Shown piece after piece: positions 10,871-48,859 of a stretch of DNA of 64,000 nucleotides. The notes beneath the pieces were generated by a model. The model did no database searches, was not told the origin of the DNA, and saw only the letters and a program-made list of their open reading frames with translations. The stretch is from Trissonchulus latispiculum (lineage: Eukaryota; Nematoda; Enoplea; Enoplida; Ironidae). Location of the stretch: the NCBI GenBank assembly GCA_030248195.1, contig JASAND010015627.1:1-64000 (forward strand), written 5' to 3'. The position numbers and the translations under genes are program-made. Within the stretch, counting starts at the first letter, position 1. Each line of letters opens with the position of its first letter.

Positions 10871-11137
10871 TCACTTCAAAGAATTTTGTGCGCTATATTT
10901 GTGTTCTAAATCTCGAAGCAGGCACAAAATTCGCGTACGCACTGCTTGTGTTTTCGAGCTTAAGGGGGGGTCCATTTTTTTGCTCATTTTTTACTTTCTC
11001 CGATCACTGATTTTTACATATTTTATTGTCTAAACTGTGGTGACGAAGAGAAAGATAAATAAAATTTAAAAATGTTTAAATAGCTTAAATACAGGACCTT
11101 AGAAAAAGAGTTGGTTTATGTTATGATCTGATACAAT

Positions 11138-12386
11138 TAGAGTTGGGACCGGTTCCAATTTTCAAAAGCGGTTCCGGTTCCGGTTCTAGAGTACCGGTTC
11201 CGGTTTAGGTTCTAGCTTCCGGTTCCCGGTTCCAAGTACAAAATTCGTAGTTACATTTTAACATTATTTAATATTGGATGCAGGCCCCCAGCAAGGGTTA
11301 TACAATCAAAATTATAAAGCAATACTGCAAAACAATTGGAATAGGTAATGCGATAATAACCAACTAGGTTAAACTTTTTGTTTACTTAGAATTTTAAAGT
11401 TTTTGCCTTACCTTGAATTTGCTCCATTACAAATGCTGTTACTATATGCACAACCTGCACTAAAACTTGTAAAAAATTAAAACTTTAGTATGGTCGAAAA
11501 ATTGTTTCGCTAATTCACGGTGAGATTCTACTGTGCAGCTAAATGCAGACAGCGCCTTCTGAACAGAATCTTGTAAACTCCATGCCGTTCCATTATTTGA
11601 ACTTTGAATGACTTTCCTCTCCGTTGCCGATAGCTTAAAAATAAGAAAATAAGTACTCAACTTTCGAAGTTTTCTACTCCTCTAAAATTTACTAATTTTT
11701 TAAAAAATGTTGCTTAAATCTTGCGTGCTGACTACACCACCTTCCATTTACCAATTTTTTGAGAAGATATACTCAATTTCCGACTACATCCCACCGAGCT
11801 CTCATCTTTTCTATGAGGTTAATATTCAAATATGTAAGCTGGTTACAGTTTTCATTCGGCGATGTATCGTTCACGTCTGAACGAAAGTGACCTTCTTTCA
11901 TCAATTACAATTGGAATTTTAGAACAGAAAATTTCAAAAATTCGTTAAAATTAATTTAGAGACATTTTCACAACTGCATTTTGTAATACACACAAAATTA
12001 TTTAATAAAATTTGAAAAATCAGAAGCATGAAAACAAAAAATTACGAAATTCTTTCCGGAATAAAGGAAGTAGAAATTTTCCCTTACATGTTCCTAATTT
12101 TTCAAGTAGGTATGTTTAACATTTAATTTTTGTCTTAACACACGGGATAATGTCACTAGTGTTGATTCAAAGAAACATTTGAAATTTCACTTAAGTCTAT
12201 GCCTCGGCTTCAGTGAAACTTGAAACGTGCCTCGATCGCCTGAAAAGGGGAAGCGGTAAGTTTGTGTCACCTTCAGTGGAAGCTGAAGCTGTCGTTTTCA
12301 GTTTAGGGTCTAAATTTATTCTATGGAGTGTCAGCTTCAGTTTCAGTTCCAATAATTGTACCTTCATTTCACGTTTAGTTTGAAAC
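11138..12386 (+). repeat. tandem left-half unit A of the hAT element
   Basis: Left-end array of GGTTCC followed by about 1.1 kb shared almost base for base with units B (12387-13860) and C (13861 onward). Unit A lacks roughly 230-240 bp present in B (about 12830-13070). It ends AGTTTGAAAC directly before the next TAGAGTTGG. Confidence 0.85.
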
Positions 12387-13860
12387 TAGAGTTGGGACCG
12401 GTTCCAATTTTCAAAACCGGTTCCGGTTCCGGTTCTAGAGTACCGGTTCCGGTTCCGGTTGTAGCTTCCGGTTCCCGGTTCCAAGTACAAAGTTCGTAGT
12501 TACATTTTAACATTATTTAATATTGGATGCATGCCCCCAGCAAGGGTTATACAATCAAAATTATAAAGCAATATACTGCAAAACAATTGGAATAGGTAAT
12601 GCGATAATAACCAACTGGGTTAAAGTTTTTTGTTTACTTAGAATTTTAAAGTTTTTGCCTTACCTTGAATTTGCTCCATTACAAATGCTGCTACTATATG
12701 CGCAAAAACTTGTAAAAAATTAAAACTTTAATATGGTCGAGCAAATTGTTTCGATAATTCACGGTGAGATTCTACTGTGCATCTAAATACAGACAGCGCC
12801 TTGTAATCGGACAGAATCTTGTAAACTGCACAACGTTTCAGTAAAACATGCTGAGAATTGAGATATACTGGAGCTTGAATTTTTATTTCTTTAAAAAGAG
12901 TACAGTGTCAGAAGCAAATAGTTTCCAAAACATTTAAATGCATTTAAAATATTTAAAAGCTGAAAGCCAAATTGGAAAGAAGAACATATATATTAAAGTG
13001 ATATTTAACGAGGAAATGTACAGTCGCTACTCGCTTGATTACACAAAATAGCTAACAGATACTTCTACATGCCGTTCCATTATTTGAACTTTGAATGACT
13101 TTCCTCTCCGTTGCCGATAGCTTAAAAATAAGAAAATAAGTACTCAACTTTCGAAGTTTTCAACTCCTCCAAAATTTACTAATTTTTTAAAAAATGTTGC
13201 TTAAATCTTGCGTGCTGACTTTTCCACCTTCCATTTACCAATTTTTTGAGAAGATATACTCAATTTCCGACTACATCCCACCGAGCTCTCATCTTTTCTA
13301 TGAGGTTAATATTCAAATATGTAAGCTGGTTACAGTTTTCATTCGGCGATGTATCGTTCACGTCTGAACGAAAGTGACCTTCTTTCATCAATTACAATTG
13401 GAATTTTAGAACAGAAAATTTCAAAAATTCGTTAAAATTAATTTAAAGACATTTTCACAACTGCATTTTGTAATACACACAAAACTATTTAATAAAATTT
13501 GAAAAATTAGAAGCATGAAAACAAAAAATTACGAAATTCTTTCCGGAATAAAGGAAGTAGAAATTTTCCCTTACATGTTCCTAATTATTCAAGTAGGTAT
13601 GTTTAACATTTAATTTTTGTCTTAACAGACGGGATAATGTCACTAGTGTTGATTCAAAGAAACATTTGAAATTTCACTTAATTCTATGCCTCGGCTTCAG
13701 TGAAACCTGAAACGTGCCTCGATCGCCTTAAAAGGGGAAGCGGTAAGTTTGTGTCACTTTCAGTGGAAGCTGAAGCTGTCGTTTTCAGTTTAGGGTCTAA
13801 ATTTATTCTATGGAGTGTCAGCTTCAGTTTCAGTTCCAATAATTGTATTTAGTTTGAAAC
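12387..13860 (+). repeat. tandem left-half unit B of the hAT element
   Basis: Repeat of unit A including the GGTTCC array, plus a segment with ACGTTTCAGTAAAACATGC that A lacks. There are three left ends but only two right ends (20080, 20420), so at least one unit probably arose by unequal exchange rather than a separate insertion. Confidence 0.85.
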
Positions 13861-15263
13861 TAGAGTTGGGACCGGTTCCAATTTTCAAAACCGGTTCCGG
13901 TTCCGGTTCTAGAGTACCGGTTCCGGTTCCGGTTCCGGTTGTAGCTTCCGGTTCCCGGTTCCAAGTACAAAATTCGTAGTTACATTTTAACATTATTTAA
14001 TATTGGATGCATGCCCCCAGCAAGGGTTATACAATCAAAATTATAAAGCAATATACTGCAAAACAATTGGAATAGGTAATGCGATAATAACCAACTGGGT
14101 TAAACTTTTTGTTTACTTAGAATTTTAAAGTTTTTGCCTTACCTTGAATTTGCTCCATTACAAATGCTGTTACTATATGCACAACATACACTAAAACTTG
14201 TAAAAAATTAAAACTTTAGTATGGTCGAAAAATTGTTTCGCTAATTCACGGTGAGATTCTACTGTGCAGCTAAATGCAGACAGCGCCTTCTGAACAGCAT
14301 CTTGTAAACTCCACGTTTCAGTAAAACATGCTGAGAATTGAGATATACTGGAGCTTAAATTTTTATTTCTTTAAAAAGGGTACCGTGTCAGTAAGCAAAT
14401 AGTTTCCAAAACATTTAAATGCGTTTAAAATATTTAAAAGCTGAAAGCCAGATTGGAAAGAACATTAAAGTTATATTTAGCGAGGAAATGTACAGTCGCT
14501 TGATTACACAAAATAGCTAACAGATACTTCTACATGCTGTTCCATTATTTGAACTTTGATTGACTTTCGTCTCCGTTGCCGATAGCTTAACAAGCAAAAG
14601 TTGTCTGCAAAATCTGCTGTTTTATTTGTGGAGCTGAGACTGCATTCCAGTCAGGGGCCGGCTACGCAGTTGATTTTCTGTTTGAGCTTGTGATTGTCTT
14701 GTACAGAAGATTTCCGGAAACTGTTTTTGCATGTTACCAAAAGAAAAAGTGATTACGGCAGTCGCTATTGAGCAATCCGTGGCAAACTTTGCCACTAGCC
14801 GAAAAAGGCAGTCTGTGGAGACAAAGCAACCTTTATGGCACTCTGTGAAATCGAAAACGTGTTTGCTACATCAGGAGTGATTAGATTTTTGTTCTGCCTG
14901 GAGGCAGAACTATTGCCACGGAAAATAGCTATGTTTAGCACTATGGGCACCCTTCTCTACTGTTATTCACCTTATCTTCAACTGTGCGTGTATGGCGCGT
15001 CCATCTGATCTTACTTTCATTTGAAAAATCAAAACATCTGACATTTGCCCATTTGCACAATGTTTTGTGTTTTCATCTAAATTGAGGTACAAACGGTTAA
15101 CAACTTTGACGCAATGTTATGTTCTGCTACCAAATATCAAAGCAACAAGCATCACTCAAATCTCAAAGATTTGCTTGTTGTTTGTTGATTTGAGTTTGCT
15201 TTAAAAATCAAAACGTTTTACAACAAACGCAAAACGCTATGCACAAAAATCAAGCTTTGTTCC

Positions 15264-15396
15264 TGTTGGCCAATTTCTTAGGCTAAGACAGAATCTGATT
15301 GGCTGTCGCAGACCACGCCTCCTTCTCTGATTGGCTAGTCCGTTAAAATTCTCCGAAGTGCCGTCAGTTTGAATTTGGGCGGGAGTTTGAATTCAA
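15264..15396 (+). promoter_or_regulatory. CCAAT-box cluster plus CHR/GC-box, promoter-like
   Basis: CCAAT at 15270-15274 and two ATTGG boxes at 15298-15302 and 15330-15334 are spaced about 28 and 32 bp apart, the helical phasing typical of NF-Y sites in cell-cycle promoters. Next comes TTTGAATTTGGGCGGG followed by AGTTTGAA: two TTTGAA (CHR-like) motifs flank a GGGCGGG box. The start codon of the first exon lies about 85 bp downstream. The same set occurs inverted in the other arm (about 18077-18207). Function is inferred from motifs only. Confidence 0.5.
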
Positions 15397-15478
15397 CAAT
15401 AGAATTTTATCTGGAATAGCTGGTTTTGCTGTAGCAATTTGAAGTTAGATTCAAGTTTGTTTGCGGAAACTTAGAAGC

Positions 15479-15568
15479 ATGTCTAATATTACTTTGGTTT
15501 TTGGTGAGGTATCAAAAACCATTGAGAAACATCGCCAGTCTGTGGATAACATCTCAAAGCTGTTTCTG
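15479..15568 (+). CDS. first coding exon of an unrecognised gene (plus-strand arm)
   Basis: ATG followed by 29 further sense codons, MSNITLVFGEVSKTIEKHRQ and then SVDNISKLFL, ends in phase 0 at a consensus donor CTG|GTAAGT. The start context and the promoter-like motifs upstream support a real exon. A possible second exon after TTTACATTTCAG begins at 16080, but in phase 0 it stops after 14 codons (AASRSATNGQAATA), whereas the longest open frame there is a different phase. I do not recognise the protein. The identical exon in the opposite arm shows that this 5' end was duplicated with the palindrome. Confidence 0.5.
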
Positions 15569-15879
15569 GTAAGTATTTCTCCATTTGATTAATATTTAAT
15601 TTAATTATGTTTGAGTCGTCGTATTTATGCTCCTGCCCGGTATCTAAGAATGTTCCTGTATGGTAGGCACGGACTTTGAAGATGAATTATTTTTTACGGG
15701 GGCGGGCGGGAGACCCATGAAATTGACCTCGCCCCCCGAAATTAAGTTCGCCTCCGAAATCACCCGTTCCCGGGATTTTTGTCCTCCCCCGGTATCTTTG
15801 GGGAGCCCAAATTTTTGCCAAAATTTTCAGAAATATTCCGACCTTGCTGGTCATTTTAGGCAATAAAAGGAAAAAAAAA

Positions 15880-16015
15880 TATGAAAGAAAAAATAAAAGT
15901 GGGGGGGGGAGAAATGGAGAGGGGAACGCGTGGAGGGAGGGGTCGCGTGGGGGGAACCCAACAAGTGGGGGGCGCCCCCGCCGCCCCCCAGTAAAAAAAC
16001 CCCAGCGTAATATTG
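15880..16015 (+). mobile_element. fragment (right end) of the G-rich 5-bp-TSD element family
   Basis: G-rich blocks end with GGCGCCCCCGCC and CCCCAGTAAAAAAACCCCAG, the conserved right terminus also seen at 45599 and 51340. Confidence 0.6.
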
Positions 16016-16184
16016 AATTGACGGATTCTTAGTTATCGACTGTGACAATTCTTAGTTTGGAATTGACATTTACATTTCAGGCCGCCTCCCGCTCCGCCAC
16101 TAATGGGCAGGCAGCTACAGCCTAGACGTCAGCCCCCACCTGCTCGAGTTCCGCCACCGAAGGCAACAAAGCTGGTGGCGGGTG

Positions 16185-16302
16185 CCAAAACTTATTTTTA
16201 GCCCATTTTATTGCCTCCCACTTTTGGACCTCGTCCCCGCACTAGCGCCCCCAGACTTCCCCCACCCCACTTATTTGTGCCTAGAAAAACCCCAGGTACG
16301 TA
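16185..16302 (-). mobile_element. fragment (left end) of the G-rich element family, inverted
   Basis: On the minus strand it starts CTGGGGTTTTTCTAGGCAC, continues with AAATAAGTGGGGTGGGGG and reaches AATAAAATGGGCTAAAAAT, the standard left half of the family. Confidence 0.65.
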
Positions 16303-16681
16303 TGCAAATTTCGTGGAGGCCGTGGTCGATATTCTGACGCCTTGATCCAGGAAAAACCGGGTTCAGCAAAAACGGGTGGTAAGTTATACAAGCAGGACAC
16401 CTAAAATCAGTTATTTTTAAGCGACTTTTTGCAGTTTTTACAGAAAGAATAAATCGAAAAAATTAGTCGAAAAGATCCCCCCAGTTTGGATGAACCCTCC
16501 CTCGTTGAAGCCCGCCACAACAGCTCATCTAGAAATAAACCAGACATCTTAGTTGATAAAGGTTGATTTCACGCAATTCTAATTACATAAATCGTGGAAA
16601 GCTTAAAATGCTCGGGATAAAAATGTTTTCTACTTAAAAAAGCTAAAAAATCAAATACTGACTCACCCAATTCTTATCTGT

Positions 16682-16840
16682 TGTAGCGTAGAATTATGAG
16701 CGAGCGATCGCTGTTCATTGATTCAGCAATGACCTTAAAGGTTGAACAGTCCGCAGGCAGCTGAAATTTGCCATCTTCTTCAGGAAAAATAGTAAGAGAT
16801 CCGTCTTCCCTTTCCAACAGGACATTGGCAGAGCTGACCT
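16682..16840 (-). CDS. candidate terminal exon, unrecognised
   Basis: Following TTGTTTTATAG on the minus strand an open frame reads VSSANVLLEREDGSLTIFPE, then EDGKFQLPADCSTFKVIAES and MNSDRSLIILRYNR before a stop. The acceptor, the amphipathic protein-like composition and its position in line with the first exon at 17990 suggest the last exon of the gene carried in the palindrome. Function unknown. Confidence 0.4.
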
Positions 16841-17159
16841 ATAAAACAAGCATCAATTTAGTACAATAAATGCTACGATTCAAAAATGTTTCATGAAAAC
16901 CATAGATAACATCACGAAAGAAAGACCGCAGTGAAGATTAAGGTATCAACAACAGCCAGAAAGAGTACCTCCACAGATAGATTTATCAACTATTAAACGT
17001 CAAACTAAGAAAAAGAATTAACATAAACGATCGTATTACCATCAAAATTCCAAAATAAGGGATCATAAGCTAGATGATGGTTCCAAGACAGACTTAACTA
17101 AGTTTGCTGAGCTTTATATTGAGTCTAATTCAGCAAAAATATGCAAATTAGGTTGCATG

Positions 17160-17418
17160 TCACGTCACGTTTATTTGCATATTAAAAAAGCAAAGTAGAC
17201 TGAGACTGAACACCAAGGTTTTGAATTTTGAAATAGCTTCCGATGTCGTATGCAAATTAGCCAACCATGGATTGCAGATTTCATAACTGATGACTGTTGC
17301 CACATCGATATTTTGAATCGGTACAGAAACTGGCTTGATACGTACAATAGGATTGTGTGAATGGGAAGAGTGAAAGCCAGAAGTTTTGCAAAAAACTGAA
17401 GGGGGCAATGTCGAGCTG
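17160..17418 (-). CDS. candidate internal exon, unrecognised
   Basis: After the acceptor-like TTTTTCACAG a frame is open for about 85 codons, beginning STLPPSVFCKTSGFHSSHSH and including NIDVATVISYEICNPWL. Composition looks protein-like, but the phase does not match the 17901-17990 exon directly, so an extra exon or frameshift would be needed. No family recognised. Confidence 0.3.
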
Positions 17419-17610
17419 TGAAAAAAGTAGAAATTTCTTGTAGAAACGATAAAACAGTTAAATCAATTTTATTTAAAAATGTATTTTAGAAATATCTGTG
17501 GGGGGGCATGGGGCACGAGAAAATTTCGGGGGGGGGGGGGGGTGTAAAAAATGAAAAATTAGTATTTAAAAAAATTACTAGATATAGGCAGAAAGTAGAC
17601 ATGTTCACGA

Positions 17611-18488
17611 AAAATGACCAGCAAGGTCGGAATACTTCTGAAAATTTTGGCAAAAATTTGGGCTCCCCAAAGATACCGGGGGAGGACAAAAATCCCGGGA
17701 ACGGGTGATTTCGGAGGCGAACTTAATTTCGGGGGGCGAGGTCAATTTCATGGGTCTCCCGCCCCCCACCCGTAAAAAATAATTCATCTTCAAAGTCCGT
17801 GCCTACCATACAGGAACATTCTTAGATACCGGGCAGGAGCATAAATACGACGACTTAAACATAATTAAATTAAATATTAATCAAATGGAGAAATATTTAC
17901 CAGAAACAGCTTTGAGATGTTATCCACAGACGGGCGATGTTTCTCAATGGTTTTTGATACCTCACCAAAAACCAAAGTAATATTAGACATGCTTCTAAGT
18001 TTCCGCAAACAAACTTGAATCTAACTTCAAATAGCTGCAGCAAAACCAGCTATTCCAAATAAAATTCTATTGTTGAATTCAAACTCCCGCCCAAATTCAG
18101 ACTGACGGCACTTCGGAGAATTTTAACGGACTAGCCAATCAGAGAAGGAGGCGTGGTCTGCGACAGCCAATCAGATTCTGTCTTAGCCTAAGAAATTGGC
18201 CAACAGGATCAAAGCTTGATTTTTGTGTATAGCGTTTTGCGTTTGCTGTAAGACGTTTTGATTTTTACAGCAAACTCAAATCAACAAACAACAAGCAAAT
18301 CTTTGAGATTTGAGTGATGCTTGTTGCTTTGATATTTGGTAGCAGAACATAACATTGCGTCAAAGTTGTTAACCGTTTGTACCCAAATTTAGATGAAGAT
18401 ACAAAACATTTTGCAAATGCGCATACGTTAGATGTTTTGATTTTTCAAATATTTTTAAAATCAGATGGACGCGCCATACACGCACATT
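17611..18488 (-). repeat. right arm of the 878-bp-arm palindrome
   Basis: Inverse of 14982-15860, carrying the same promoter-like sequence and the same first exon on the minus strand. The spacer between the arms (about 1.75 kb) is not symmetrical. Confidence 0.9.
17901..17990 (-). CDS. first coding exon of an unrecognised gene (minus-strand arm)
   Basis: The same 30-codon exon as at 15479-15568, with one visible substitution (HRP instead of HRQ), ATG at 17990 and donor CTG|GTAAAT at 17900. Downstream on this strand lie two further coding-like stretches (17160-17418 and 16682-16840), so this arm may still drive the original gene. Confidence 0.5.
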
Positions 18489-20428
18489 CAACATTGGCCT
18501 AGTATGTTGTTCTGGTCATTTTTTAGCCGGAGGGGGCCTATGCTTTCTAACTCAGATATTTTAACTTGTAATTTTGAGGTTGTGCTTGCAGCACCTGTCC
18601 TGACTTTGGACAGGCTGTAATTTTTCTTCCAGTCCCCCAAGCCTTATTTCCAATTTTGCTTATGCTTGCACCCCCCACAAACTTTTCACTTCACAGAATA
18701 ATTTTGAAGGATGTCATATTTATGCAAATTAGGTTACCAATATCTGGAATCAGTTCCTATTTAGCAACTTGCCTAATAACTTGCAACTTTATGCTCTCAG
18801 CCTGATTTGCTCGCATGGACTTGATGGCCCAACTTCAGACTTGAGCCGTGCGTTTTTATTTTTTGGTATGCTATAGTGCAGGTGTAAGGGGATCTATGTC
18901 TTCGCAGTGATGCAAACTCTAATTCTGTTAAAATGATCGACTCCAGTGTTTGCTATGAAAACGTTCATTCAACCAACCGCTGAGGCGTAGCCGGAAAAAT
19001 AAGAAAATAAGTGCTCAACTTTCGAAGTTGTCTACTCCTCTAAAATTTACTATTTGTTTAAAAAATGTTGCTTAAATCTTGCGTGCTGACAATACCACCT
19101 TCTATTTACCAATTTTTTGAGAAGATATACTCAATTTCCGACTACATCCCATCGAGCTCTCATCTTTTCTATGAGGTTAATATTCAAATATGTAAGTTAG
19201 TTAAAGTTTTCATTCGGCGATGTATCGTTCACGTCTGAACGAAAGTGCCCGTCTTTCGTCAATTACAACTGGAATTTTAGAACAGAAAATTTCAAAAATT
19301 CGTTAAAATTAATTTAGAGACATGTTCACAACTGCATTTTGTAATACACACACAAAATTCCTTAACAAAATTTGAAAAATCAGAAGCATGAAAACAAAAA
19401 ATTACGAAATTCCTTCCGGAATAAAGGAAGTTGAAATTTTCCCTTACAATACATGTTCCTAATTTTTTAAGTATGTTTAACATTTAATTTTTGTCTTAAC
19501 AGACGGGATAATGTCACTAGTGTTGATTCAAAGAAACATTTGAAATTTCTCTTAATTCTATGCCTCGGCTTCAGGGAAACCTGAAACGTGCCTCGATCGC
19601 CTGAAAAGGGGAAGCGGTGAGTTTGTGTCACCTTCAGTGGAAGCTGAAGCTGTCGTTTTCAGTTTAGGGTCTAAATTTATTCTGTCAGCTTCAGCTGTCA
19701 GTGTCAGCTTCAGTTTCAGTTCCAATAATTGTACCTTCATTTCACGTTTAGTTTGAAACCCTTAATTATTATCAGTATCATCCTGCATATTTCGCCTTCA
19801 GGTCTAAATTTGTTTAGTTCCAGTTCAAACTAGATTTTTAGTTTCAATTTCAGTCACTAGCTTGAAAAAGACAATATGAATGGCAACAGTGAATGGCAAC
19901 CACAAAAACAAAATCCAGCTTTTGCAAAATTTAAACTCCTGCAATAAAATTAGTTCAAGTCCATTTTTAAGAGTGGAACCGGCCGGTTCCAAATCCTACC
20001 GGTTCCGGGTTCTAAAATTCCTTCCGGTTCGGTTCCGGTTCCGGTTCCAACCGGTTCTGGTGGAACCGGTCCCAACTCTATTTGAAACTCTTAATTATTA
20101 TCAGTCTCATCCTACATATTTCGCCTTCAGGTCTAAATTTGTTTAGTTTCAGTTCAAACTAGATTTTTATTTTCAATTTCAGTGACTAGCTTGAAAAAGA
20201 CAATATGAATGGCAACAGTGAATGGCAAACACAAAAACACAATCCAGCTTTTGCAAAATTTAAACTCCTGCAAAAAAATTAGTTCAAGTCCATTTTTAAG
20301 AGTGGAACCGGTCGGTTCCAAATCCTACCGGTTCCAGTTCCGGTTCTGGTTCCGGTTCTAAAAACCCTTCCGGTTCGGTTCCGGTTCCAACCGGTTCTAG
20401 TGGAACCGGTCCTAACTCTAGATACAAT

Positions 20429-21897: not shown

Positions 21898-21937
21898 ACT
21901 CTTGATTGTAGTAAATATATACTAAAGAAACCTGTAC

Positions 21938-22808
21938 TAGAGCTGGGGCCGGTTCCACTAGAACCGGGTGGAACCGGAACCGGAACCGGAACCGAACCGG
22001 AAGGATTTTTAGAACCGGAACCGGAACCGGAACCGGTAGAAATTGGGACCGGCCGGTTCCAGGCTCAAAAATTGAGCTTGAAGTAAAATTTTTGCCAAAT
22101 GTAAAATTTGCAATAGTTGGATTTTGGGCCTGGATCTCATAATCTAGTAGCATTTGATTCTGATTCATGATTTTCTTGCTCTACAGTTTGAAGCTTGGAA
22201 CAGCCTTGGCACGAATGTAGAGTCATTAGCGAATAATTCGAAATCGGCGATTACTACATACGAACAGTTGTGTACATTTCAAGAAGACTTAACGAATAGC
22301 TCGATGAACGAATATTCCTAAATATTTGTTTATTCTCACTTAGTTAATTGCTTTAATATTAATACGGAAGATTTTTGTATTTATTGCAAGATGTCGACTC
22401 AAGCTAAACTGAATCTAAAATGACCAAATGTGTTGAAGGTAACGTACGTGCAGCTGAACGCGCAGCAAACTTTGAAAGACTACATATTATTCAATTTTTG
22501 GAGTTCAACGATAATTTTTAAAACATTTTAAAGCTTAGTTAAATTTAATAATTTTAAAGTTACTACAAGTATATTGTCTAGTTGCTTGGTATGTTTAATC
22601 CAATTGATTTATACCATTGCTTCTTCATTTTGATTGTATAAGCCCTATAGGGGCCTACAACAAATATTAAATAACAAAGAAAATAATCACTACAAATTTT
22701 GTACTTGGAACCGGGAACCGGAAGCTAGAACCGGAACCGGAACCGGAACCGGTACCCTAGAACCGGAACCGGAACCGGTTTCGAAAATTGGAACCGGCCC
22801 CAGCTCTG
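21938..22808 (-). mobile_element. hAT-like element of the GGTTCC family, inverted, 871 bp
   Basis: Ends are TAGAGCTGGGGCCGGTTCC and its inverse CCGGCCCCAGCTCTG. The flanking octamers are ACCTGTAC (21930-21937) and TCCTGTAC (22809-22816), matching at seven of eight bases. Arrays of GGAACC lie inside both ends. Internal sequence matches, in reverse, parts of the 11-20 kb elements (for example ATTTTGTACTTGGAACCGGG). Confidence 0.82.
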
Positions 22809-24639: not shown

Positions 24640-27030
24640 GGGGGGGTCGCTTTGGGTCAAAATCGATAGTCACGGATTTCGCTCATTTTCACACACAATA
24701 TAGGTACATATGTTCTCAAAAACAAGACAAAACATTAGAGTTCGAAATCAAACTGTGGCAAAGATATTCAGCTATAAAGTTGGAAAACTTGAAAATCACT
24801 GTGATTTGCCCTCCAAGGTCGTGTTGAGACAACTGTTTGGGTTAACTAATATGGCAAATTAATTCTGCGGGTTGGTTAATATTTTAATACTAAAACGACT
24901 CCGGGATATCCAGCCAGTCGTTCACAGGACATTCTTCAATTGTGAACTGAGCTTTTTCAGCTACCTGTGCTCTCAAACTTTAACTTGCTCTAACTTTCAG
25001 ATACTACATTTCAGACACATGGTGATATTAGAGAAGTTGTTCAGCTCATCAGTAGCTATCGAATGATACCCAAATTGTCTATATTTTGAAAATTTCAAAA
25101 ATTGACTTTTGTGACCTATAAAAGATCAAAGGAGCCGACACGACAGAAAAGGTCTACCTTGTAGCATTTACCTTTACCATAATGTCCGGCAGGCATTGAG
25201 AGTTTTATGTGCTAATTCTGGTGACTTTCGAGTGGGTAACGAGTGAGAAATTATTAAAAGAACGTGAAAATTGTGCAAAATGATGATTTTTGGCAAAATT
25301 AGCATATTTTCTGGCAAGTTTTTTGAGAGCACTACAAATGGTAGAAATTTGAAACTATTGGCATAAGAGTTCTGCGTATGCGTAGAGTGCAACTATCTAT
25401 AAGCGATTACTGTAGCTTTTGCAAATCGTGCAGGACAGCAAAAACGTTTCGCTGGTCCTGTTTTTCGTGGTACAAAAAGCACCATTTTTACAAAATTTTG
25501 ACTTTGAAAAATGGCCAAAAATCCGACACTCAACAGAATTGTACCGGAAGGGTTATTTGCACTCTCTGATATGTCCTTAACCTTTACAATAAGGTTGTAG
25601 CGCTGTATCTTGCATACAGCGAACAATTTTTCTGCCACAAACTTTTTAACCTAACTTTTTCATTTTCCTATGTCATGCCAACACAAGTAAAGGTCACCTT
25701 TCATGTGCTCTACTGAACGATTGAAGCAATATTACGCAAAATGCACCTGTCTTGTTTTGAGGACCCATTGGGACTACAAAACAGAGATGAAACCGGGTCA
25801 CTTAGACTTGACCCGGTGACCCGGTGACCCGGTAGACCTCTGACCCGGTGACCCGGTGACCCGGTGACCCGGTATTTTCAGAATTTCTGAGTTACGGCTG
25901 TAAAAAACTAAAAACTAAGTTTTTGGTGGGGGGTGAGCGCCTTTCACTCATTTAACGCATTTTTGGTGCCTTACGCTTGAAATATGTTCTTATTGAAAAA
26001 TATTGTTTGTATCCTAAAAGCAGTTTGTCGGAAAATATTTAGATCTTTCAGCAAAAATTTTGATTCAAAGACCACAAAGAAAGAGGGTCGGCCGTCAAAG
26101 ATACTTACCCAATATGCGGTAACAACATCAGAAATTAAACTGAACACCGCTGGGAAAGCATGAGTCTTACTGCGTCCGGATGATTTAACTTTAGCTTAAT
26201 GGAAAAATGTTTTCTCGTTTTATTAATGTCACTAGCCTTTCTCGTTTTGTTAGTTTCACTAAAAATATCGTTATTATCAATTTTAAATAAAGATTTTGCC
26301 AAAATATTTAGTACAGCAAAATTGCTTATTGCGTCAGAAACGGCAAGACAGGGTCTCTCAAAAAGTCTGTATGATGTCTATCGTTGTTTCAGTTGTCGAC
26401 AATGTGCTATTCAAACTGGTCACTTTTTACAGTTCCACAATCTATAGCAAAAAATAAACGAAGCTAAAATTTTAGAACAAAGTGTGCAACTAAACAGAAA
26501 ATCAACAACTTATCAGTGTTTTAATTGCCGTGACCGCATATTTAGAGGAAAGCACTTGATTTCTTGGTTGAGGATGAGGGTTTCACTCTGAGGAGATTCA
26601 TATGATATTATTTTTAACTTTTGTAACTGAAGCTTAATGCAATAACTGCTCAAGACCCAAATCTGAAAGTTTTATAATAGGGACGAGACGTTCACGCTTC
26701 TTGAGAGCATTCTTGAGAGCTGGCTGAATAAAGTATTTGCTGTTTGTGCTAAATAAAAATTAAAGTGTTGGATATCAAAACTTTGGAGAAAAAACAGGAG
26801 AAAAATCTGAAATAATATGTTTACATGCAGAAAATTTGAAAATTTGTAAAGACCGGGTCCAGACCGGGTCAGAGCCTCTGACCCGGTGACCCGGTGACCC
26901 GGTCCACTTAGTGACCCGAACTGACCCGGTGACCCGGTGACCCGGTGACCCGGTTTCATCTCTGCTACAAAATATGTGAAAATGAGCAAAATCGGAGATG
27001 GTCGAAAAATCGGCCAAAAAGCGAACCCCC
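24640..27030. mobile_element. TTAA-flanked DNA element (Kolobok/piggyBac-like target site), 2.4 kb
   Basis: TTAA stands at 24636-24639 and 27031-27034. Inside it, imperfect inverted repeats of about 55 bp begin GGGGGGGTCGCTTTGGG and GGGGGTTCGCTTTTTGG and both reach GCTCATTTTCACA. TTAA target duplication is typical of Kolobok and piggyBac superfamilies; the G-rich start fits Kolobok better. No transposase seen. A hAT element is nested inside. A third, solo end of the same type (TTAAGGGGGGGTCCATTT) lies near 10962. Confidence 0.62.
25782..26964. mobile_element. hAT-like element with GACCCGGT arrays, TSD CTACAAAA
   Basis: Starts CAGAGATGAAACCGGGTCAC and ends with the inverse. CTACAAAA flanks both sides exactly (25774-25781 and 26965-26972). 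Arrays of the 9-mer GACCCGGTG occupy the first and last 100 bp. Length 1,183 bp, no transposase, so it is a non-autonomous hAT element. The internal region has only short ORFs. Confidence 0.92.
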
Positions 27031-27194
27031 TTAACGATGGAAGAAATGTCATTAAACAGAGGCACATAACCCAGTAAGGCAATCATAGTTAACGTATCTG
27101 TCCTGCCGTCTAGACAAAGACAGTCCAAAATAGGAAGTTCTTTGCCCCGTCTGCTTAGGATTAGGCTTACTTTCTATGCTATCACTCAGTCTGT

Positions 27195-32663: not shown

Positions 32664-35600
32664 CTAAAAACAGAGGAAAACACTACAACGGTGTTTGAGA
32701 CAAGATCAACTGATAGACAAAGTACTAGAGGAAGGGATTAATAGCGGTAACATCAACAGTTTGATGACGGCCTGGGTTTCACCGACCAGCGAGCTGTTGA
32801 AGCAACGGCTGGACTAGCTGGCTAGCGGTCGGTCGAGGTGCGACACTAACAAGCAAATAACACGTTTAGACGTAGTATACGTATTAATGCTGTTACCATT
32901 TTTTGACAAAATCGCAAACATTCGGAGAAAACTGATCCTCTGGAAGTGAGGGGGGCGGCTGCTCAACCACCTGCTTCAGCTGTTCAAATGGAGTCTTCCA
33001 TCGGTCATAGGGATGAACGCCAGAAGCAAGCTCAATCTACAAAAAAACCGGTTCATGACATTGCATGACTGCATGCTGTTAGAACAAGAGGCTCCGATGA
33101 AAAGAGTGAGAAGCTCAGGCTTTCTAAACAGATCAAGCCTGCGTGATGCTCGTAACACCGAAGTAGAAGTTTCGGGGTTATACCAGTCGATGATAACATG
33201 CTTATCTACGGATTTAAAGTATATCCGACTAGGTGAGAACTTTACACAAAATCAAAATTACAGACACTCCCTCCGAGATCTCAGAGGGTCCCTCTCGGCA
33301 ATGGGGACTATGTTATGTATCCGTATGGGAACAAATAAAGTCAGATTGGCTATCTTAACAACGGATGCGTGCATGCAAACTACATAAAACAACACTAAAT
33401 TTATCTAGATACTTAAACTGTACAATACTAACACACATACCAATGTAATGCCTAAGCTCCAAACGTCTGAACGAATGTCAAAGCCAGTTTGCTGCGTTTC
33501 GTTAGTAGGATTAATTCGTTCAGGCTGAAAGTGAAAGCAAGCAGATACAATAATTATAAGCATATCTTGTCACCAAAGGCACATTAAAAATAAATCAATG
33601 CAGTTACGCTCTTATTACCAAATTCTAATACTCACTGCTACTGTCTTTCAAACTGGTTAACATTCCAACAAAGATAGTCATGTTTTGCTGTTATAAAAAA
33701 GTTCTTTTAGAAAACTGTCGAAAAACAACGTACAGCCATGTAGGGTTTGCAGCCAGCAGATATTGTTTTGGCGACGCTATTAGTCAGGTGACCCGAAATA
33801 CCAAAATCACAAATCTTTATTTGGCCACGTCGATTTATGAGGATATTACTGGGCTTTACATCCCTGTGCATCAAATTAAGCTCTTCCTTCATGAAATCCA
33901 GCCCCATCAAAACCTAAAATTAAAACAATACGTAGTGAAGACTAAAAAATTGAAATATGGTGGGGGTCGTGGGTGCTGAAATTAAGAACAACTGAACAAA
34001 TTTCCATGTTTATGTACCCTCAGCATATCCACTTCTTGAATCAGAGCCAAAACCTACCTTAGTCGTGATCATTGGGTGAAGCACTTCTCTATCCGGGCAT
34101 CCCTTTTCTTTGATTTGATCTGACCTATTTCTAAAGTGAAGTTTGTAGCGGTGTACTGAACAGGGAGTTCATTACAGGAAATTCTGAGGTATTCAACTTC
34201 ATAAACCACTCCTCAAAACCGACCCAGATAGCATCTATGATTTCAATCAAGGTTTTGGCTCTGACTCAACAAGTGGCTATGCTAAGGACTCACAATATGA
34301 CAAAATGTGCATCAGTTTATAAACAAAAACAGGCGAACAAAGACGCCCGATGGCTCCAGGCGAAGCATGTTTCCCTTTACGCACCTTCACCTTCGGGTGA
34401 TGATCATCCCTTTGGGAAGTCTAATGTAGCCAACAGCAACAGTGAACTATTACCGAGTAGGCAATTTTTCCTAAAATGTCTTCTGATAAATGCTGATTTC
34501 TATCGGACAGCATATTGACTAATTTGTCAAGAGACGTGTCCATGACTTCCATGCATATCCACACATCTCCCTGAAGCAAATAAACACATTACAAACAGGT
34601 AGTGATTAATAGGGTTGTGCCGATAAGGGGCTCACCCGGGCCTAGTTGCCCTTCCGCTCGACCATAACCCGAGCCGGCACGGGTCCGGCCAAGAGCCCGA
34701 GGCCCGATACAAGGCCCGGACCTCCAGATTTTAGGAAGAATTTTATGTTATTTCATACAGTTGTCTTATTAGTTGATAAGTTATCACTTAATGACAGCGT
34801 CCACAAATGCATATGCTCATTCTTGACGTTTATGTAGCGCTGTGGTCGTCTTTCTTACAATGCTACCTACCCAAAATGTTAATTAATGGGTCACAGTCAG
34901 ATCCAATATGGCCCCATGAAATGATTCATCATTCACGGGAGTTCAATTTCTTTCCTTACAGTTTTTTCAGACTTTTCAAACTAAATTTGCTTCTTACGTA
35001 GCTTTATTACATACGGAAATTTTAATATGATAGGTTTAGTTTTCTGTTGTTTTTATGCCACAAAGAATTTCCTTAAACAGTCCACAAATAAACAGAAACC
35101 ATCGCGAATACAAAACTGGCAAGCCCAATGCTTTTCGGAAGGCCTAGTGTTATCCGCGCCTAACTGGGCCGGGGCGGCCCGCGAGGCCCGGTGGTCATGA
35201 ATCGGGCCGAGCTGGATCGCCCGACCGGTCCCCATCTAGTAAAAAGAGGCCCGGGACCGTTACCCTGGACAGCTTAGCTCATGTTGACATCTCCCTGTGG
35301 ACCGACGGATCCTCAGCTACCGGTACAATGACAGGTGGAATCGGAGTAGTCATCGATGATAGCCGGAACGGGCGACGGACCCACTTGGCATTCCCAGCTA
35401 GGAAGCTCTGCTCCAGCTATTGAGCTGAATATACTCCAAGGGCTCCTATGGCTAAGGCGTAAACATAAGTTAAATGAATGATTGCTCCTCGATCAGGATA
35501 CTCACGGATTCCCTATCCTCGGTTGAACGGTTGCGGGCCGGTCCTTCGGGCCTCATCTCTGACTTGGAATGGCAGATTTGGAACCAGCTGGACCTGCTGT

Positions 35601-36948: not shown

Positions 36949-37021
<73 letters not shown>

Positions 37022-40155: not shown

Positions 40156-40167
40156 GGCTTTCTTTTT

Positions 40168-40370: not shown

Positions 40371-40378
40371 GCGTCCCC

Positions 40379-40666
40379 CTGGGTTGGGCGAGACCGAGAT
40401 TTCACCGAGACCGAGACCGAGACCAGGGTGCCGGGACTGGCCAAGTTTCGGCTTTTGGGCGAGACCGAGAATAGCAATTTTAGGCTTAAACTTAATTTCC
40501 ACCAGTTTTTGAGGCTTAAGGTCAGTATTAGGGACTTTAACACATAAACATACGGTATTAGCACATCGTCAGTTTATTTTCGTTACATTAATTTCAAATT
40601 TTCGCTGAAATTAGGTGTTTTCACAAAAATTCCGGTATCGGTCGAAGACCGAGACTCCCAACCCTG
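40379..40666. mobile_element. hAT-like MITE with GAGACC arrays, TSD GCGTCCCC
   Basis: Ends CTGGGTTGGGCGAGACCGAG and the inverse of CAGGGTTGGGAGTCTCGG. GCGTCCCC flanks both sides exactly (40371-40378, 40667-40674). Repeated GAGACC units fill the subterminal parts. 288 bp. Confidence 0.9.
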
Positions 40667-40827: not shown

Positions 40828-41483
40828 CTGGGTTTACTTTAGGCGAAAAAAAGTGGGGGGGGAGGGGGGGAGGTCGCAAAGTGGGGGGGGGGGGAAATAA
40901 AATGGGCAAAAAATGCCAAAAATACCGTATAAAAAGCCTGTTTTCTACATATATGAATGAATGAATGAATGAATGGTTAGGGAGTATCCGCCCCCCTCAT
41001 AATGTACTTTCTTTCTAAATAGATATGTTAATGTGTATATACGTACGAGTATATAACTGTACATATTCAATGAAAGTATTATGAGGGGCCCACCTCTAGC
41101 ATTTGTGCCAACATTCTATAGACCCTACGTATAAACGAAACAGTAAACACATAAAGCAAGCATTAAACCAAAACAGTTCATTTGAAAATATACAAGATTA
41201 TAACTAAGATTATATACTGCTATAACTAAGCTTAAAAGTGCTCAAAAATTGTGTTCTAGCACCAAAAAAGACGATTTTTGACCAAAAAATTCCGGCGACG
41301 CCGGAAAATTTTTGAAAATTTTGACCAAAAATCCTAAAAATTTGGCATTTTCTGGGCACCCTATAGTGAGTGGGGGGGAAGCCCAAAAAAGTGGGGGGGG
41401 GGGACGAGTGGGGGGGAGGTGCTCGAGGGGGGGGGCCAAAAAGTGGGGGGGGCGCCCCCCCCCCCCCAGTAAAATAAACCCAG
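40828..41483 (+). mobile_element. G-rich element family, TSD GGCTC, with internal expansion
   Basis: Starts CTGGGTTTACTTTAGGCG and ends CCCAGTAAAATAAACCCAG. GGCTC flanks both ends (40823-40827, 41484-41488). About 240 bp of unrelated sequence beginning with (GAAT)n at 40955 interrupts it before CTGCTATAACTAAGCTTA at 41217. Confidence 0.8.
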
Positions 41484-43060: not shown

Positions 43061-43101
43061 CATTCCCCGGAATATGGAACAATTTTATCTGCCGTAGTAG
43101 G

Positions 43102-43974: not shown

Positions 43975-46010
43975 CCACAGCGCCCACCCACAGTGGCTCC
44001 GGTGTGGCTCAAAAATGAAAGTCTTCAAAAGTGGTCATGTTTGGTATCAAATGAAAGCCCTTGGCGAGGCGATCAACTTTTGTCATTATGCCACACCCGA
44101 AAAGTGGCTCCATCGTCCTGTGGGCGGGTGCCCCACCCACAGTGGGTAAGCTGATGCTCAAAAATGAAAGTCTTCAAAAGTGGTCATGTTTGGTATCAAA
44201 TGAAAGCCCTTGGCGAGGCGATCAACTTTTGTCATTATGCCACACCCGAAAAGTGGCTCCATCGTCCTGTGGGCGGGTGCCCCACCCACAGTGGGTCAGC
44301 TGTGGCTCAAAAATGAAAGTCTTCAAAAGTGGTCATGTTTGGTATCAAATGAAAGCCCTTGGCGAGGCGATCAACTTTTGTCATTATGCCACACCCGAAA
44401 AGTGGCTCCATCGTCCTGTGGGCGGGTGCCCACCCACGGGTGGGTCCGGTGTGGGTTAAAATGAAGTCTTCAAAAGTGGTCATGTTTGGTATCAAATGAA
44501 AGCCCTTGGCGAGGCGATCAACTTTTGTCATTATGCCACCCACAAAAAGTGCCCTCACGGACCTATGGGCAGGTGCCCCACCCACAGTGGGTCCCGTGTG
44601 GGTCAAAATTGAAAGTCTTCAAAAGTGGTCAAGTTTGGTATCAAATGAAAGCCCTTGGGAAGGCTAACAACTTTGTCATTATGCCACCCACAAAAAGTGC
44701 GCTCACGGACCTGTGGGCGGGTGCCCCACCCACAGTGGGTCTGGTGTGGGTCAAAAATGAAAGTCTTCAAAAGTGGTCAAGTTTGGTATCAAATGAAAGC
44801 CCTTGGCGAGGCGGTCAACTTTTGTCATTATACCACCTCCAAAAAGTGGCCCCACCGATCTGTCGGCGGGTGCCCCACCCACAGTGGGTCCGGTGTGGGT
44901 CAAAAATGAAAGTCTTCAAAAGTGGTCAAGTTTGGTATCAAATGAAAGCCCTTGGCAAGGCGATCAACTTTTGTCATTATGCCACCCACTAAAAGTGCCC
45001 TCACGGACCTGTGGGCGGGTGCCCCACCCACAGTGGATCCGGTGTGAGTCAAAAATGAAAGTCTTCAAAAGTGGTCAAGTTTGGTATCAAATGAAAGCCC
45101 TTGGCAAGGCGATCAACTTTTGTCATTATATATACCACCTCCAAAAAGTGGCCCCACCGATCTGTGGGCGGGTGCCCCACCCACCTGGGGTTTTTCTAGG
45201 CAAAAATAAGTGGGGGGGGGGGACGAGTGGGGGGCCCCCCACTAGTGGGGGGGGGGGGAGGTCCAAAAGTGGGTGGAGGGAAATAAAATGGTCTAAAAAT
45301 GCCAAAAATACAGTTAAAAAGTCTGTTTTCTACATATTATATATACTGCTATAACTAAGTGCTCAAAAATTGATAGACGATTTTCGACCAAAAAATTTTG
45401 GCGAAGCCGGAAATTTTTGAAAACTTTGACCAAAAATCCTTAAAATTTGACATTTTCTGGGCACCTTTGGGTGAGGGGGGGGGGGGAAGCCCAAAAAAGT
45501 GGGGGGGGGAACGAGTGGGGGGAAGAGGTCGAGTGGGGGGGGGGAACCTTGTGGGGGGGGGGGGGCCCCCCCCCCCCCCCCCCCAGTAAAAAACCCCAGC
45601 CCACAGTGGGTCCGGTGGGTCAAAAATGAAAGTCTTCAAAAGTGGTCAAGTTTGGTATCAAATGAAAGCCCTTGGCAAGGCGATCAACTTTTGTCATTAT
45701 GCCACCCACAAAAAGTGCCCTCACGGACCTGTGGGCAGGTGCCCCACCCACAGTGGTCCGGTGTGGGTCAAAAATGAAAGTCTTCAAAAGTGGTCAAGTT
45801 TGGTATCAAATGAAAGCCCTTGGCGAGGCGATCAACTTTTGTCATTATGCAACACCCGAAAAGTGGCTCCATCGTCCTGTGGGCGGGTGCCCACCCACGT
45901 TGGGTCCGGTGTGGGTCAAAAATGAAAGTCTTCATAAGTGGTCAAGTTTGGTATCAAATGAAAGCCCTTGGCAAGGCGATCAACTTTTGTCATTATAGCA
46001 CCCACGAAAA
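43975..46010 (+). repeat. 149-bp satellite array, about 11 monomers
   Basis: Monomers start around CCCACCCACAGTGGGTCC and share GTCTTCAAAAGTGGTCAAG and TTTGGTATCAAATGAAAGCC. Period measured between GGCGAGGCGATCAAC copies is 147-149 bp. A G-rich element interrupts the array at 45185-45599. Open frames through the array come from the period lacking stops and are not genes. Confidence 0.92.
45185..45599 (+). mobile_element. G-rich element family, complete copy inside the satellite, TSD CCCAC
   Basis: Starts CTGGGGTTTTTCTAGGC and ends CCCCAGTAAAAAACCCCAG. CCCAC is duplicated at 45180-45184 and 45600-45604. Removal restores a normal satellite monomer (CCCACCCACAGTGGGTCC), which proves the insertion. 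Confidence 0.9.
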
Positions 46011-46277
46011 GTGGTTCCATCGCTCTGCGGAGAGGGTACATTCGTGTGTTGTCAAGCGTGTAAGTTCAAAAACGCGAAAAATTGTCAACCTCTAAAATGA
46101 ATGCGGCCAAGATTGTTTCATTATATCTTTAGCTAAAATGAATGTGGCAAAGATTGTTTCATTATATAGCTGGAGTGGAGGTAACAATACAAAATCCTTC
46201 AGGCTTGCTATATATAAGTTAAAACCCACCCTTATGGATGGTATCACACTCTGATACAATACCAAAAATGAAATAGG

Positions 46278-47021
46278 ACAAGTAGGAAAAATGCTCCTTG
46301 CAGTCGCATGAAAAAGTTAATATGAGCTATGATGCCCAACATTTAAGCGTGTCAAGGACAAGACTTAAAATGTTTAATATGAGCCAGCATCTAAATATGT
46401 AGAGGACAAGATGTAAACGTCTAACATGAGCCGCTACGTTTCTCTTGGGCTCATATTGACGCAAATGAAATGGCTAATATATTTTGTAGATACAAAGGCT
46501 TTCTTCAGATAGTCAAAAGGTTAGGATGGTTTGCATATGCAAGGATGGTAAGGCTGGATGAAATCTCACTAGGTAAGTATATATCGTCTGTGACAGTTCT
46601 AATTTTTATTTCCTTATTCAGGTTTATATTGATTGCTTTTGTTAATAATTTATACATACGTATAGTGAGATCTGAAGCAGCGTCGTAAAACAAACACATT
46701 TTTTGAAGTGAAGTTGAAAAATCTGGCAATTCTGATTTTTGCTAAACGTATACGCCAGTATTAATATTCAGTCTTTGCTGGCTAGGTTTAATAATGTCTG
46801 TTTAGAGGACACGTACCACAGGCGTAACCAAAGTGAGCGTCAATATGAGCCCAAGAGAAACGTAGCGGCTCATGTTAGACGTTTACATCTTGTCCTCTAC
46901 ATATTTAGATGCTGGCTCATATTAAACATTTTAAGTCTTGTCCTTGACACGCTTAAATGTTGGCCATCATAGCTCATATTAACTTTTTCATGCGACTGCA
47001 AGGAGCATTTTTCCTACTTGT
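46278..47021. mobile_element. foldback MITE with 185-bp inverted arms
   Basis: Arms 46278-46462 and 46837-47021 are nearly perfect inverses, starting ACAAGTAGGAAAAATGCTCC and ending at GGGCTCATATTGACGC. The 374-bp middle is not symmetrical and has no convincing gene. A partial copy of the arm lies at 42288-42338. Target duplication not clear. Confidence 0.88.
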
Positions 47022-47415
47022 ATATATATAGCTCACTTTTGGGACAAATATCAGCTGCCATAGAAATGCTACAAACACTGAACACTGAACGTTCAATTCT
47101 TTCAAACAACTCTGTGACAAACTAGAAACCATCTGCCCAGCGACATTAATGTTGAATAACTTACGTTGAGGCATGGCAGGTCATGTAAAAGCAACCGAAA
47201 TGCCCAAAGCAAGACATAGAAAAAGCTAATATCAAATGGTGGATGGGAACAAGTATAAACAACACATATGAAACATCCTTTAACACAACAAACATAACGT
47301 ACCTAGGTGTGTAAGTAAAAGGACAATTAGAAACGCACTCAATTTTAGTTCCCAGTCTACTTTTAATGGGGATGCAGGAGATGCATTAGTAAAAACCACA
47401 GCTACCCAGCAGGGG

Positions 47416-48859
47416 CTAGCATTTTTTAGGGTTTTGAAAGTGGGGGGGGCTTCTGAAAAGTGGGGGGGCGAGTCCAAGGTATAAATTACCAAACTTTTTA
47501 GCCAAACAGGGTTTTTTTTTGGTTGCGGACAAGTGTGCATTTTTTGTGCATTTTTAAAAAATAGTGTGCATTTTGGAAAAAATGTGTGCATTTTTAAAAA
47601 ATTGCTTATTTTGAACTATGACGTACATTTTTGGCCGTAATTTTGTGTTCTACGCATTTTTGACTTCAACTGGAATCCCACGCTTTAGTTGATGTTTTGA
47701 TGACGATTTTAAATCTTAGCTGGTTAGCACACGTATACTGATATTTAGGCAAATGCAGAACTATACAAACTAACGTATATAGGTGTCGGGTTTTGACACC
47801 TGCAATGCTGCGAACCTATTAAGCGCAAAATTGTGAATAACATAAAATCAACACAGGATTGTCAATTTGCTGCCAAATTTACTTATATAATTCAAAAATT
47901 TCTTCAAAGTAACGCTAAAATCCGAGCTGAAATTACGTATTGGTGTAATTCAGCCCTGTTCTGCGGGTAGCCATTTAATATATATATATCTAACGTATAT
48001 ATATATATATATAATGCAGAAATTAGATTGAAAGTCGACGCCGGGGAGGTCTGTGGGCGGAATTCCCCAGAAGTTGGGAATTTTTTGGAATTTTGAACAC
48101 GAAAGAAATTTTTATGAACAATTTCTTACCATTTTAACAGATTAACAAACGGCAATAAGATTGCTAGCATTGCACACGTCGAACCGTTGTAGAAGAAGAA
48201 AATGTAAAGAAATGCTTTAAGAAAAATTGGCTTAATCCAGCCATTTATTTTTGACGATGAAGGAACGCACACTAGTATAAATATATACTTACAATCTAAA
48301 GCAAAAATAATTCAATAATTAGTGGCTTTAGTGAGGAAGAATAAAACAAAGAAAGGTTGTAGCGACGTTGCCATGACCGAAAAATAGTACGTAAGAAAAA
48401 GCGGGGGTCTGGGGGCGGCAGCCCCCAGCTAAAAGCTAGAGCTTTTTTTAAAATTTAAAGCACTTTGGAAATTTTTTAGAGCATTTTGTGGTTAGCGGAA
48501 GCAAAATTTGACTGTGCATTTATGTGTGCATTTTTAAATTCGAGTGTGCATTTTGGAAAAAAAGTGTGCATATGCACAGTAAAATGCACAAAAAAAACCC
48601 TGTAGCCAAATATAAGCATTTTTAGGTAAAAACACAAAAAATCGCTGTTTTAAGCTAAAAAGTATCTTATAAATCCATAAATTAGCTAAAAATTGAGAAA
48701 ATTTTTTAAAACTTGACCTCAAAACCTTAATTTTTCGACACTTTTGGGCGACCCCCCAAAAAGTGGGGGGGGCTTGCCGAAAAGTGGGGGGACTCCGAAA
48801 AGTGGAGGGGGAACCGAAAAGTGGGGGGCCCCCACCCCCCCCCACTAAAAAAATGCCAG
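47416..48859 (+). mobile_element. G-rich element of a related subfamily, TSD AGGGG, interrupted by a hAT element
   Basis: Starts CTAGCATTTTTTAGGG and ends CCCACTAAAAAAATGCCAG. AGGGG at 47411-47415 and 48860-48864. Contains GAAAAGTGGGGGG repeats at the right. Without the nested hAT element it is about 350 bp, the family size. Confidence 0.7.
47507..48602. mobile_element. hAT-like element with TGTGCATTTT arrays, TSD TAGCCAAA
   Basis: Starts CAGGGTTTTTTTTTGGTTGC and ends AAAAAAAACCCTG. TAGCCAAA is duplicated exactly (47499-47506, 48603-48610). Repeats of TGTGCATTTT occupy both subterminal regions (about 47533-47600 and 48512-48590). 1,096 bp, no transposase. Confidence 0.9.

Follow-up and report, generated by a model that had tools for sequence, protein, structure and literature searches.

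The stretch analysed here, 64,000 nucleotides of the nematode Trissonchulus latispiculum (GenBank JASAND010015627.1, positions 1 to 64,000, part of contig C10606; hereafter the window), contains transposable elements of the hAT superfamily that carry arrays of short tandem repeats just inside their tips. We scanned the window by script for 8-bp duplications at 0-1 mismatch combined with hAT-like tips, and arrays inside the tips were located with Tandem Repeats Finder (TRF) and hexamer counts. Genome searches were run on the 734-Mb assembly, and loci fetched from it are designated by L numbers. The first-pass annotation had claimed at least eight elements with hAT-type ends and 8-bp target-site duplications; such ends and duplications are indeed present, in six elements. 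These elements, with their arrays and two further candidate stretches, are as follows.

11138..20420, plus strand: composite GGTTCC-family hAT element, duplication GATACAAT
Left tips 12387 and 13861, right tip 20080: nested GGTTCC-family insertion at an internal TTTGAAAC site (duplication scan)
11169..11233, plus strand: left GGTTCC array of the outer element (TRF; 6 GGTTCC copies in 150 bp)
12417..12482, plus strand: GGTTCC array at the second left tip (TRF, hexamer counts)
13891..13962, plus strand: GGTTCC array at the third left tip (TRF, hexamer counts)
20300..20420, plus strand: right end with GGTTCC array, in the same plus-strand direction as the left array (TRF, counts)
21938..22808, minus strand: GGTTCC-family element, duplication ACCTGTAC/TCCTGTAC, arrays at 21970-22036 and 22707-22778
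25782..26964, plus strand: GACCCGG-family element, duplication CTACAAAA, arrays at 25809-25873 (7 units) and 26879-26954 (9 units)
40379..40666, plus strand: GAGACC (CGAGAC) family element, duplication GCGTCCCC, array at the left end only in this copy
47507..48602, plus strand: TGTGCATTTT-family element, duplication TAGCCAAA, loose arrays at ~47534-47602 and ~48514-48590
57157..57728, strand not applicable: GGGAAAAAAACCC arrays in inverted arrangement, limits set by eye
34610..35230, plus strand: possible further element, tip TAGGGTTGTGCCGATA, resembling the tip of the duplication-flanked GCCCGA-unit family of L083/L086

Four families had been credited with arrays inside both ends. This holds in the window for GGTTCC and GACCCGG and, loosely, for TGTGCATTTT, whose element has 4 and 6 unit copies at its ends; the GAGACC copy has lost its right-end array. 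A fifth group proposed as hAT, GGGAAAAAAACCC, has no pair flanked by an 8-bp duplication in the window, and its membership of the superfamily is unproven. Within the composite at 11138-20420, same-family elements are nested at one internal site with three left tips versus two right tips, pointing to nested self-insertion plus loss or unequal exchange. The composite also holds a snapback insertion of ~4.4 kb (~14590-18990, limits by eye) with near-identical arms at 15274..18195. A tblastn search of the window with 12 transposase pieces returned zero matches (E<=0.01).

Arrays in genomic copies and beside transposase genes

Some hexamer was present in at least six copies in 31 of the 36 terminal 150-bp stretches of 18 elements, versus 13 of 565 internal or flanking control windows. 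This element set combines the window with fetched loci and includes several members of some families, as well as L070, which has no clean duplication; the left end of the element at 47507 passes through AAAAAT and not through its own unit. Counting one fixed unit per family, at least six copies stood at 26 of the 34 ends of 17 elements. About 18 different array units occur across the families or subfamilies of the genome. Arrays lie on many other contigs, and the annotation's picture of unrelated families within one locus gave way on both points: the families are all hAT, and a driver special to this locus was rejected.

The array units also resemble the inner part of the terminal inverted repeat (TIR) of their own family. 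Compared over 16 families, array 5-mers and own inner TIRs scored 89, while permuted TIRs gave a mean of 22 and a maximum of 56 in 20000; the own inner TIR was the best-scoring row entry in 10 of the 16 families, and the score was zero for GGCCTAAA. Tip and inner motif seem to change separately, since similar tips carry different inner motifs or arrays: L014 and L018 have a common outer tip, TAGGCATGG-CACG, but CGGGT is the inner motif and array unit of one and CGAAT that of the other, and L022-L024 resemble the window TGTGCATTTT family in their tips (CAGGGTTTTTTTTTGG, 0-3 mismatches) but differ from it in their arrays.

For the window families, the best 40 of 3243, 2194, 2555 and 1640 first-look candidates were scored. 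The possibility, raised in the annotation, that arrays are missing from most copies did not hold for GACCCGG or TGTGCATTTT, the latter being spanned at both ends by 37 of 39 scored non-window copies (94-98% identity). For GGTTCC the outcome depended on the end, the left array being covered by 39/39 scored non-window copies (85-93% identity) and the right array reached by just 1/39. Four GACCCGG copies match over the full length at 96-99%. The left array of this family is present in 20/20 copies having the left tip (21 left ends fetched; 2-12 units) and the right array in 19/19 copies having the right tip (21 fetched; 2-9 units), with one of the right tips matching poorly (6 mismatches) and an identical flank at two of the right ends; duplications agree at <=1 mismatch in 12 of the 16 copies with both ends read. 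C658, considered as a possible autonomous GACCCGG element, proved to be a copy with insertions and had no match to the transposase pieces used. As to GAGACC, 32 of 39 non-window copies show a second same-strand match to parts of the left array at the right end, and all six copies read elsewhere (two without intact tips) have CGAGAC arrays at both ends, so that the both-end claim for this family fails in the window copy and holds in these six.

We compared array length with age in the GACCCGG family, as the annotation had suggested. The closer a copy is to the window copy in identity, the more units it tends to have, at the left end (Spearman 0.75, p 8e-5, n=21) as at the right (Spearman 0.59, p 0.006, n=20, window included); the identities were hand-picked from the search output where a copy was in pieces. 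This correlation is no proof of selection, because identity is a rough age measure, the copies are non-independent and the divergent copies L047, L048 and L049 (72-81%) hold 6, 5 and 3 left units. The same correlation would come from slippage within a single lineage that is expanding.

A PF05699 profile search returned at least 113 matches (best 150 of 176 candidates scored), and 30 loci were examined, 20 of them chosen mainly for long open frames, 8 later and 2 because the L077 protein matched them. Sorted into array classes partly by eye, nine have arrays at both own ends (L009, L010, L011, L012, L013, L015, L016, L079 and L081, the left array being weak in the last two), nine have an array at the one end seen (L014, L017, L018, L019, L020, L076, L077, L082 and L084), four have sparse or short arrays (L022, L023, L024 and L085) and three have a 22-bp minisatellite instead (L025, L026 and L028, a family with the tip CTGGGC). 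A hAT-domain gene, an 8-bp duplication and arrays at both ends occur together in L009, L010, L011, L012, L015, L016, L079 and L081. Duplications of 8 bp were also found in L076 (an insertion), L080, L074 (left tip at position 31), L075 and L083/L086, where ATTACGTG stands at both sides of the GCCCGA-family element; the L070 duplication is not clean, and those of L070/L071 come closest with the left tip one base in. Tips open with Y-A-G-N-G or close to it in the elements scored, with the exception of the left tip at 40379 (CTGGG) and of the L025/L026/L028 family (CTGGGC). The arrays are real and family-specific; hAT elements with and without coding sequence have them, although some copies lack them. 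Among side observations, the 8-bp duplication TTCCACAA around L010 408-5306 is intact, and the tip within it carries an additional TAGAG (TAGAGTAGAGATGAGG). In the hAT-domain gene family at L025 5607-6222, L026 8150-9001 and L028 1113-1398, the minisatellite has a GGTGCG core and lies near one end; several of its reading frames are open in L026 and L028. No array was seen in the first 400 of the 801 bases of L087, a stretch close to L007.

The coding relatives possess the hAT C-terminal dimerisation domain and similarity to Hermes. The L009 protein aligns to Hermes over residues 12-592 of 592 (E 3.6e-76), and a search with the L012 protein found 107 proteins among 7997 scored candidates, including a house-fly transposase; the two best were 37-38% identical over 98%. 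GGTTCC-type transposase genes adjoin GGTTCC arrays in L077, in L084 (57% identical to L077 over the matched part) and in L085 (3-4 units). Because 36 of 38 bases are shared between the tip beside the L084 gene and the window tip at 22808, and 14 AACCGG lie within 200 bp of this L084 end, the one seen, the window GGTTCC elements probably used an L084-like enzyme. Of the autonomous relatives that the annotation proposed to look for, a coding candidate was found for GGTTCC (L084, also L077; same tip and unit at one end); for GACCCGG, GAGACC and TGTGCATTTT, none with matching tip and unit was found among the coding loci examined.

Array direction and BED-finger residues

To determine array direction, we scored the strand on which most copies of a non-palindromic core lay, using ends of up to 230 bp minus their outermost 20 bp. 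Arrays run the same way at both ends, though the TIRs are inverted, in 10/10 families with non-palindromic units, nine of them duplication-verified: GGTTCC, GACCCGG, CGAGAC, TGTGCA, GGCTC, GGCCC, TGGGTCA, GGGTCGC, GGCCTAAA and GCCCGA (L083/L086). L016 was left out for its palindromic unit; the L022 call rests on 2 and 2 copies with the duplication not verified, and the L012 left array is mixed (7 versus 9). Script-picked cores of lengths 5, 6 and 7 gave 0/10 inverted elements (nine families, L016 included), with one tie at 5 and two at 7; the TGTGCA word at length 5 was AAAAT, and the left end of L079 was mixed. The GGCCC and GGCTC families have a minority block in the opposite direction at one end. 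Two stretches with inverted arrays were excluded. The insertion at L013 4856-5205, whose empty site is found in L015 and which carries GCACAAG arrays, is presumably PIF/Harbinger-like; its 3-bp TTA duplication rules it out as hAT and indicates that arrays also occur outside this superfamily. The element at L023 ~3805-3930 was set aside since no duplication was seen. Hermes left-end repeats 2-7 are described as antisense and right-end repeats 1-5 as sense (PMC10368747), which, if read from the tips, would seem to be the co-oriented arrangement found here. Apart from that statement, the portions of the open-licence literature at hand contain no general account of co-oriented arrays or of a BED residue rule in hAT elements.

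Key base contacts of the Hermes BED zinc finger are made by N67 and R70 (PMC10368747). The L009 protein aligns to this finger, and L011, L012 and L017 align to L009; the fingers of L084 and L085 were read by eye, and L022 carries another zinc finger. The residues aligned to Hermes 67/70 are N/R in L081, S/K in L084 and L014, S/N in L018, N/N in L019 and L020 and H/R in L009 and L011. Once these data had been seen, we formed a rule in which N70 corresponds to A, R/K70 to G, N/S67 to T and H67 to C, the S67 part being taken from the data. The other assignments are general zinc-finger preferences. The rule predicts the array dinucleotide in 8/8 families, which 1 of 560 label arrangements matches, and in 6/6 when near relatives are merged (1 of 60 arrangements); L012 and L017 were not counted separately, having the residues and unit class of L011, and L015 (N/D), L016 (T/R) and L022 were left out. 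L082 (T67/R70, unit GGGGCC) agreed with a prediction scripted beforehand, on a by-eye reading of its finger across a supposed intron, with Y where others have L, I or V. For L076, the subject of a second advance prediction, the finger was not found and the prediction went unscored.

We regard the residue rule as a lead. It would form half of a two-part code, in which the array unit reads out BED residues 67/70 (N70-A, R/K70-G; N/S67-T, H/T67-C) and array direction labels the left and right ends; we advance this code tentatively and consider it rather doubtful. If true, it could keep coexisting hAT families orthogonal and pair their ends correctly, and the arrays would constitute a natural table for the BED-finger recognition code.

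Binding-site arrays and rival explanations

We propose that each array multiplies a site to which the BED zinc finger of the family's own hAT transposase binds, a reading that the sequence comparisons make probable. Each end has a short conserved tip, seen in the sequence, that may serve in cutting. The inner TIR motif would act as the first binding site, and the tandem array would repeat that motif. A transposase multimer could then bind through several of its fingers simultaneously; at the Hermes left end, three are engaged. The array unit would be family-specific because the BED finger is, and the two ends would differ because both arrays point one way along the element, a polarity that may help the enzyme to distinguish a left from a right end and to join one with the other. 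Array length appears to change fast, probably by slippage or gap repair, and a minimum length would be kept because sites are needed. The architecture, its conservation in copies, its presence beside transposase genes, the inner-TIR likeness and the co-orientation are directly observed, and from them we infer binding, multivalency, polarity and selection. If arrays report transposase specificity, the motifs of uncharacterised hAT transposases and of derived host genes would be readable from genome sequence, and the co-orientation rule would bear on how two hAT ends are distinguished.

The premise of the annotation that hAT transposases bind repeated subterminal motifs is borne out by Ac, with its AAACGG motif (PMC3260210), by Tag1, Ac, Tol2 and Herves (PMC3143072) and by Hermes (PMC10368747). 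Multivalent transposase binding, which it had suggested, fits the inner-TIR likeness, the hAT transposase pieces in array elements and the keeping of the unit while length varies. There is no need to invoke a special common driver: hAT ends have long been known to carry repeated motifs for transposase binding (Ac, Tol2, Tag1, Hermes), an old property of the superfamily.

Several observations weigh against the binding-site proposal or limit it. The Pfam zf-BED profile matched above cut-off in L014 and L016 only and below cut-off in L017, L018, L019, L020 and L081; it had no match in L009, L011, L012 (scanned at E<=0.001), L015 or L078. Five of the 30 coding loci (L021, L027, L078, L080 and L083) have no array attributable to their own ends, and one of these, L080, is flanked by a duplication yet retains hardly any array, in contrast to its relatives L079 and L081, which have arrays. 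The ten co-oriented families are not ten independent trials because they share ancestry, and 0.5^9 for nine of them would be unfair as a probability for the same reason; in the GCCCGA family, the word TTCGGG came out inverted and the other three of four words co-oriented. In 5/9 families (GGTTCC, GACCCGG, TGGGTCA, GGGTCGC and GGCCTAAA) the TIR motif runs against its array at one end and with it at the other; the TGTGCA family has a TIR motif at one end only. The opposed-and-in-line pattern is not general: at both ends, the motif runs against the main array in the GGCTC and GGCCC families (L009, L011) and with it in the CGAGAC (GAGACC) family. In the Hermes structures, three left-end sites are bound and none at the right end, phasing is strict, and mutation of the inner left-end sites leaves about 70% of activity (PMC10368747). 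Ds is mobile with three AAACGG copies, and some Ds1 elements without them move (PMC3260210).

Neutral slippage, in which one or two motifs per end are needed and replication slippage or gap repair expands them with no effect of length on mobility, is a serious contender, albeit one that we believe somewhat less than evenly likely to be correct. It would account for differences in array length between close copies (the GACCCGG left array has 2-12 units), for the 13 AACCGG in 200 bp of L077 versus the 3-4 units of L085 and for the slippage-derived look of the higher-order units of L034, and few sites are enough for Ac and Hermes (PMC3260210, PMC10368747). Selection for more sites is not established, because slippage in one expanding lineage fits and the Hermes mutants retain most activity. 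However, slippage alone would not arrange a common orientation at both ends in 10/10 families, and arrays are far commoner at transposon ends than elsewhere (31/36 versus 13/565). The same excess led us to reject chance microsatellites captured in transposons, an idea that the short periods (5-10 bp) might suggest and that is scarcely credible given that the unit recurs across genomic copies.

The sites might instead titrate transposase or lower its activity, guarding against over-activity as piggyBat subterminal sequences do. We find this unlikely: piggyBat activity does rise on removal of subterminal inhibitory DNA (PMC11707139), and elements with transposase genes carry arrays, but in the GACCCGG family left arrays lengthen with likeness to the window copy (Spearman 0.75, n=21), opposite to what strong inhibition would predict if the most similar copies are recent. 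A host-related role through nucleosome exclusion or CpG methylation, independent of the transposase finger, is very improbable; although many units contain CG (AACCGG, CGAGCC, CGGGCC), the TGTGCATTTT, TGGGTCA and AAATC units do not, and units resemble the family's own inner TIR.

The window has other features besides the arrays. A repeated family recognised by eye at 40829-41480, 45183-45600 and 48970-51340 has ends like CTGGGGTTTTTTA and G-rich runs inside, and one copy has a possible 5-bp duplication (GGCTC). Satellite blocks with a 147-149-bp period lie at 43983-46022, 50141-50943 and 60901-61313 (TRF). On the minus strand, 27100-30110 and 32100-39270 contain what we take, by eye, to be two ionotropic-receptor-like genes and a kinase-like gene (MAP2K-like), and a tRNA-Asn lies at 38808-38881.

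Comparison with known transposon ends

In Ac of maize, the TIRs are 11 bp long, target sites are duplicated over 8 bp, and the transposase binds AAACGG hexamers that recur within the terminal 200 bp (PMC3260210). The elements described here are like Ac/Ds in their 8-bp duplications, short TIRs and repeated subterminal motif (PMC3260210); unlike in Ac/Ds, their units stand mostly in head-to-tail arrays and differ among some 18 families or subfamilies of one genome. Units here are co-directed at both ends. Hermes of the house fly likewise has a BED finger that reads short subterminal repeats, and asymmetric ends, but its repeats are scattered AAGT/AAGC tetramers in place of dense arrays (PMC10368747). 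Tag1, Tol2 and Herves also possess family-specific subterminal motifs bound by the transposase, and dense arrays are not among the features described for them in the portion of the source available to us (PMC3143072).

Outside hAT, among Muta1 and other mosquito Mutator-like elements (MULEs), 10 of 12 long-TIR families similarly have subterminal tandem repeats with short units (9-15 bp), and the repeat number varies among derivatives; these elements belong to a different superfamily, Mutator (PMC5225508). The CGGBP proteins are domesticated hAT BED domains, with BED and Hermes DNA-binding domains and diverse short motifs, and four hAT proteins assayed on microarrays gave motifs that match their own subterminal regions (PMC8097297). 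These CGGBP proteins are host genes, and the sections of that report at hand describe neither an array architecture nor a residue rule (PMC8097297). Repeated binding motifs at hAT ends are already established. The present analysis adds the density of the arrays across many families, the direction they share and their match to BED-finger residues.

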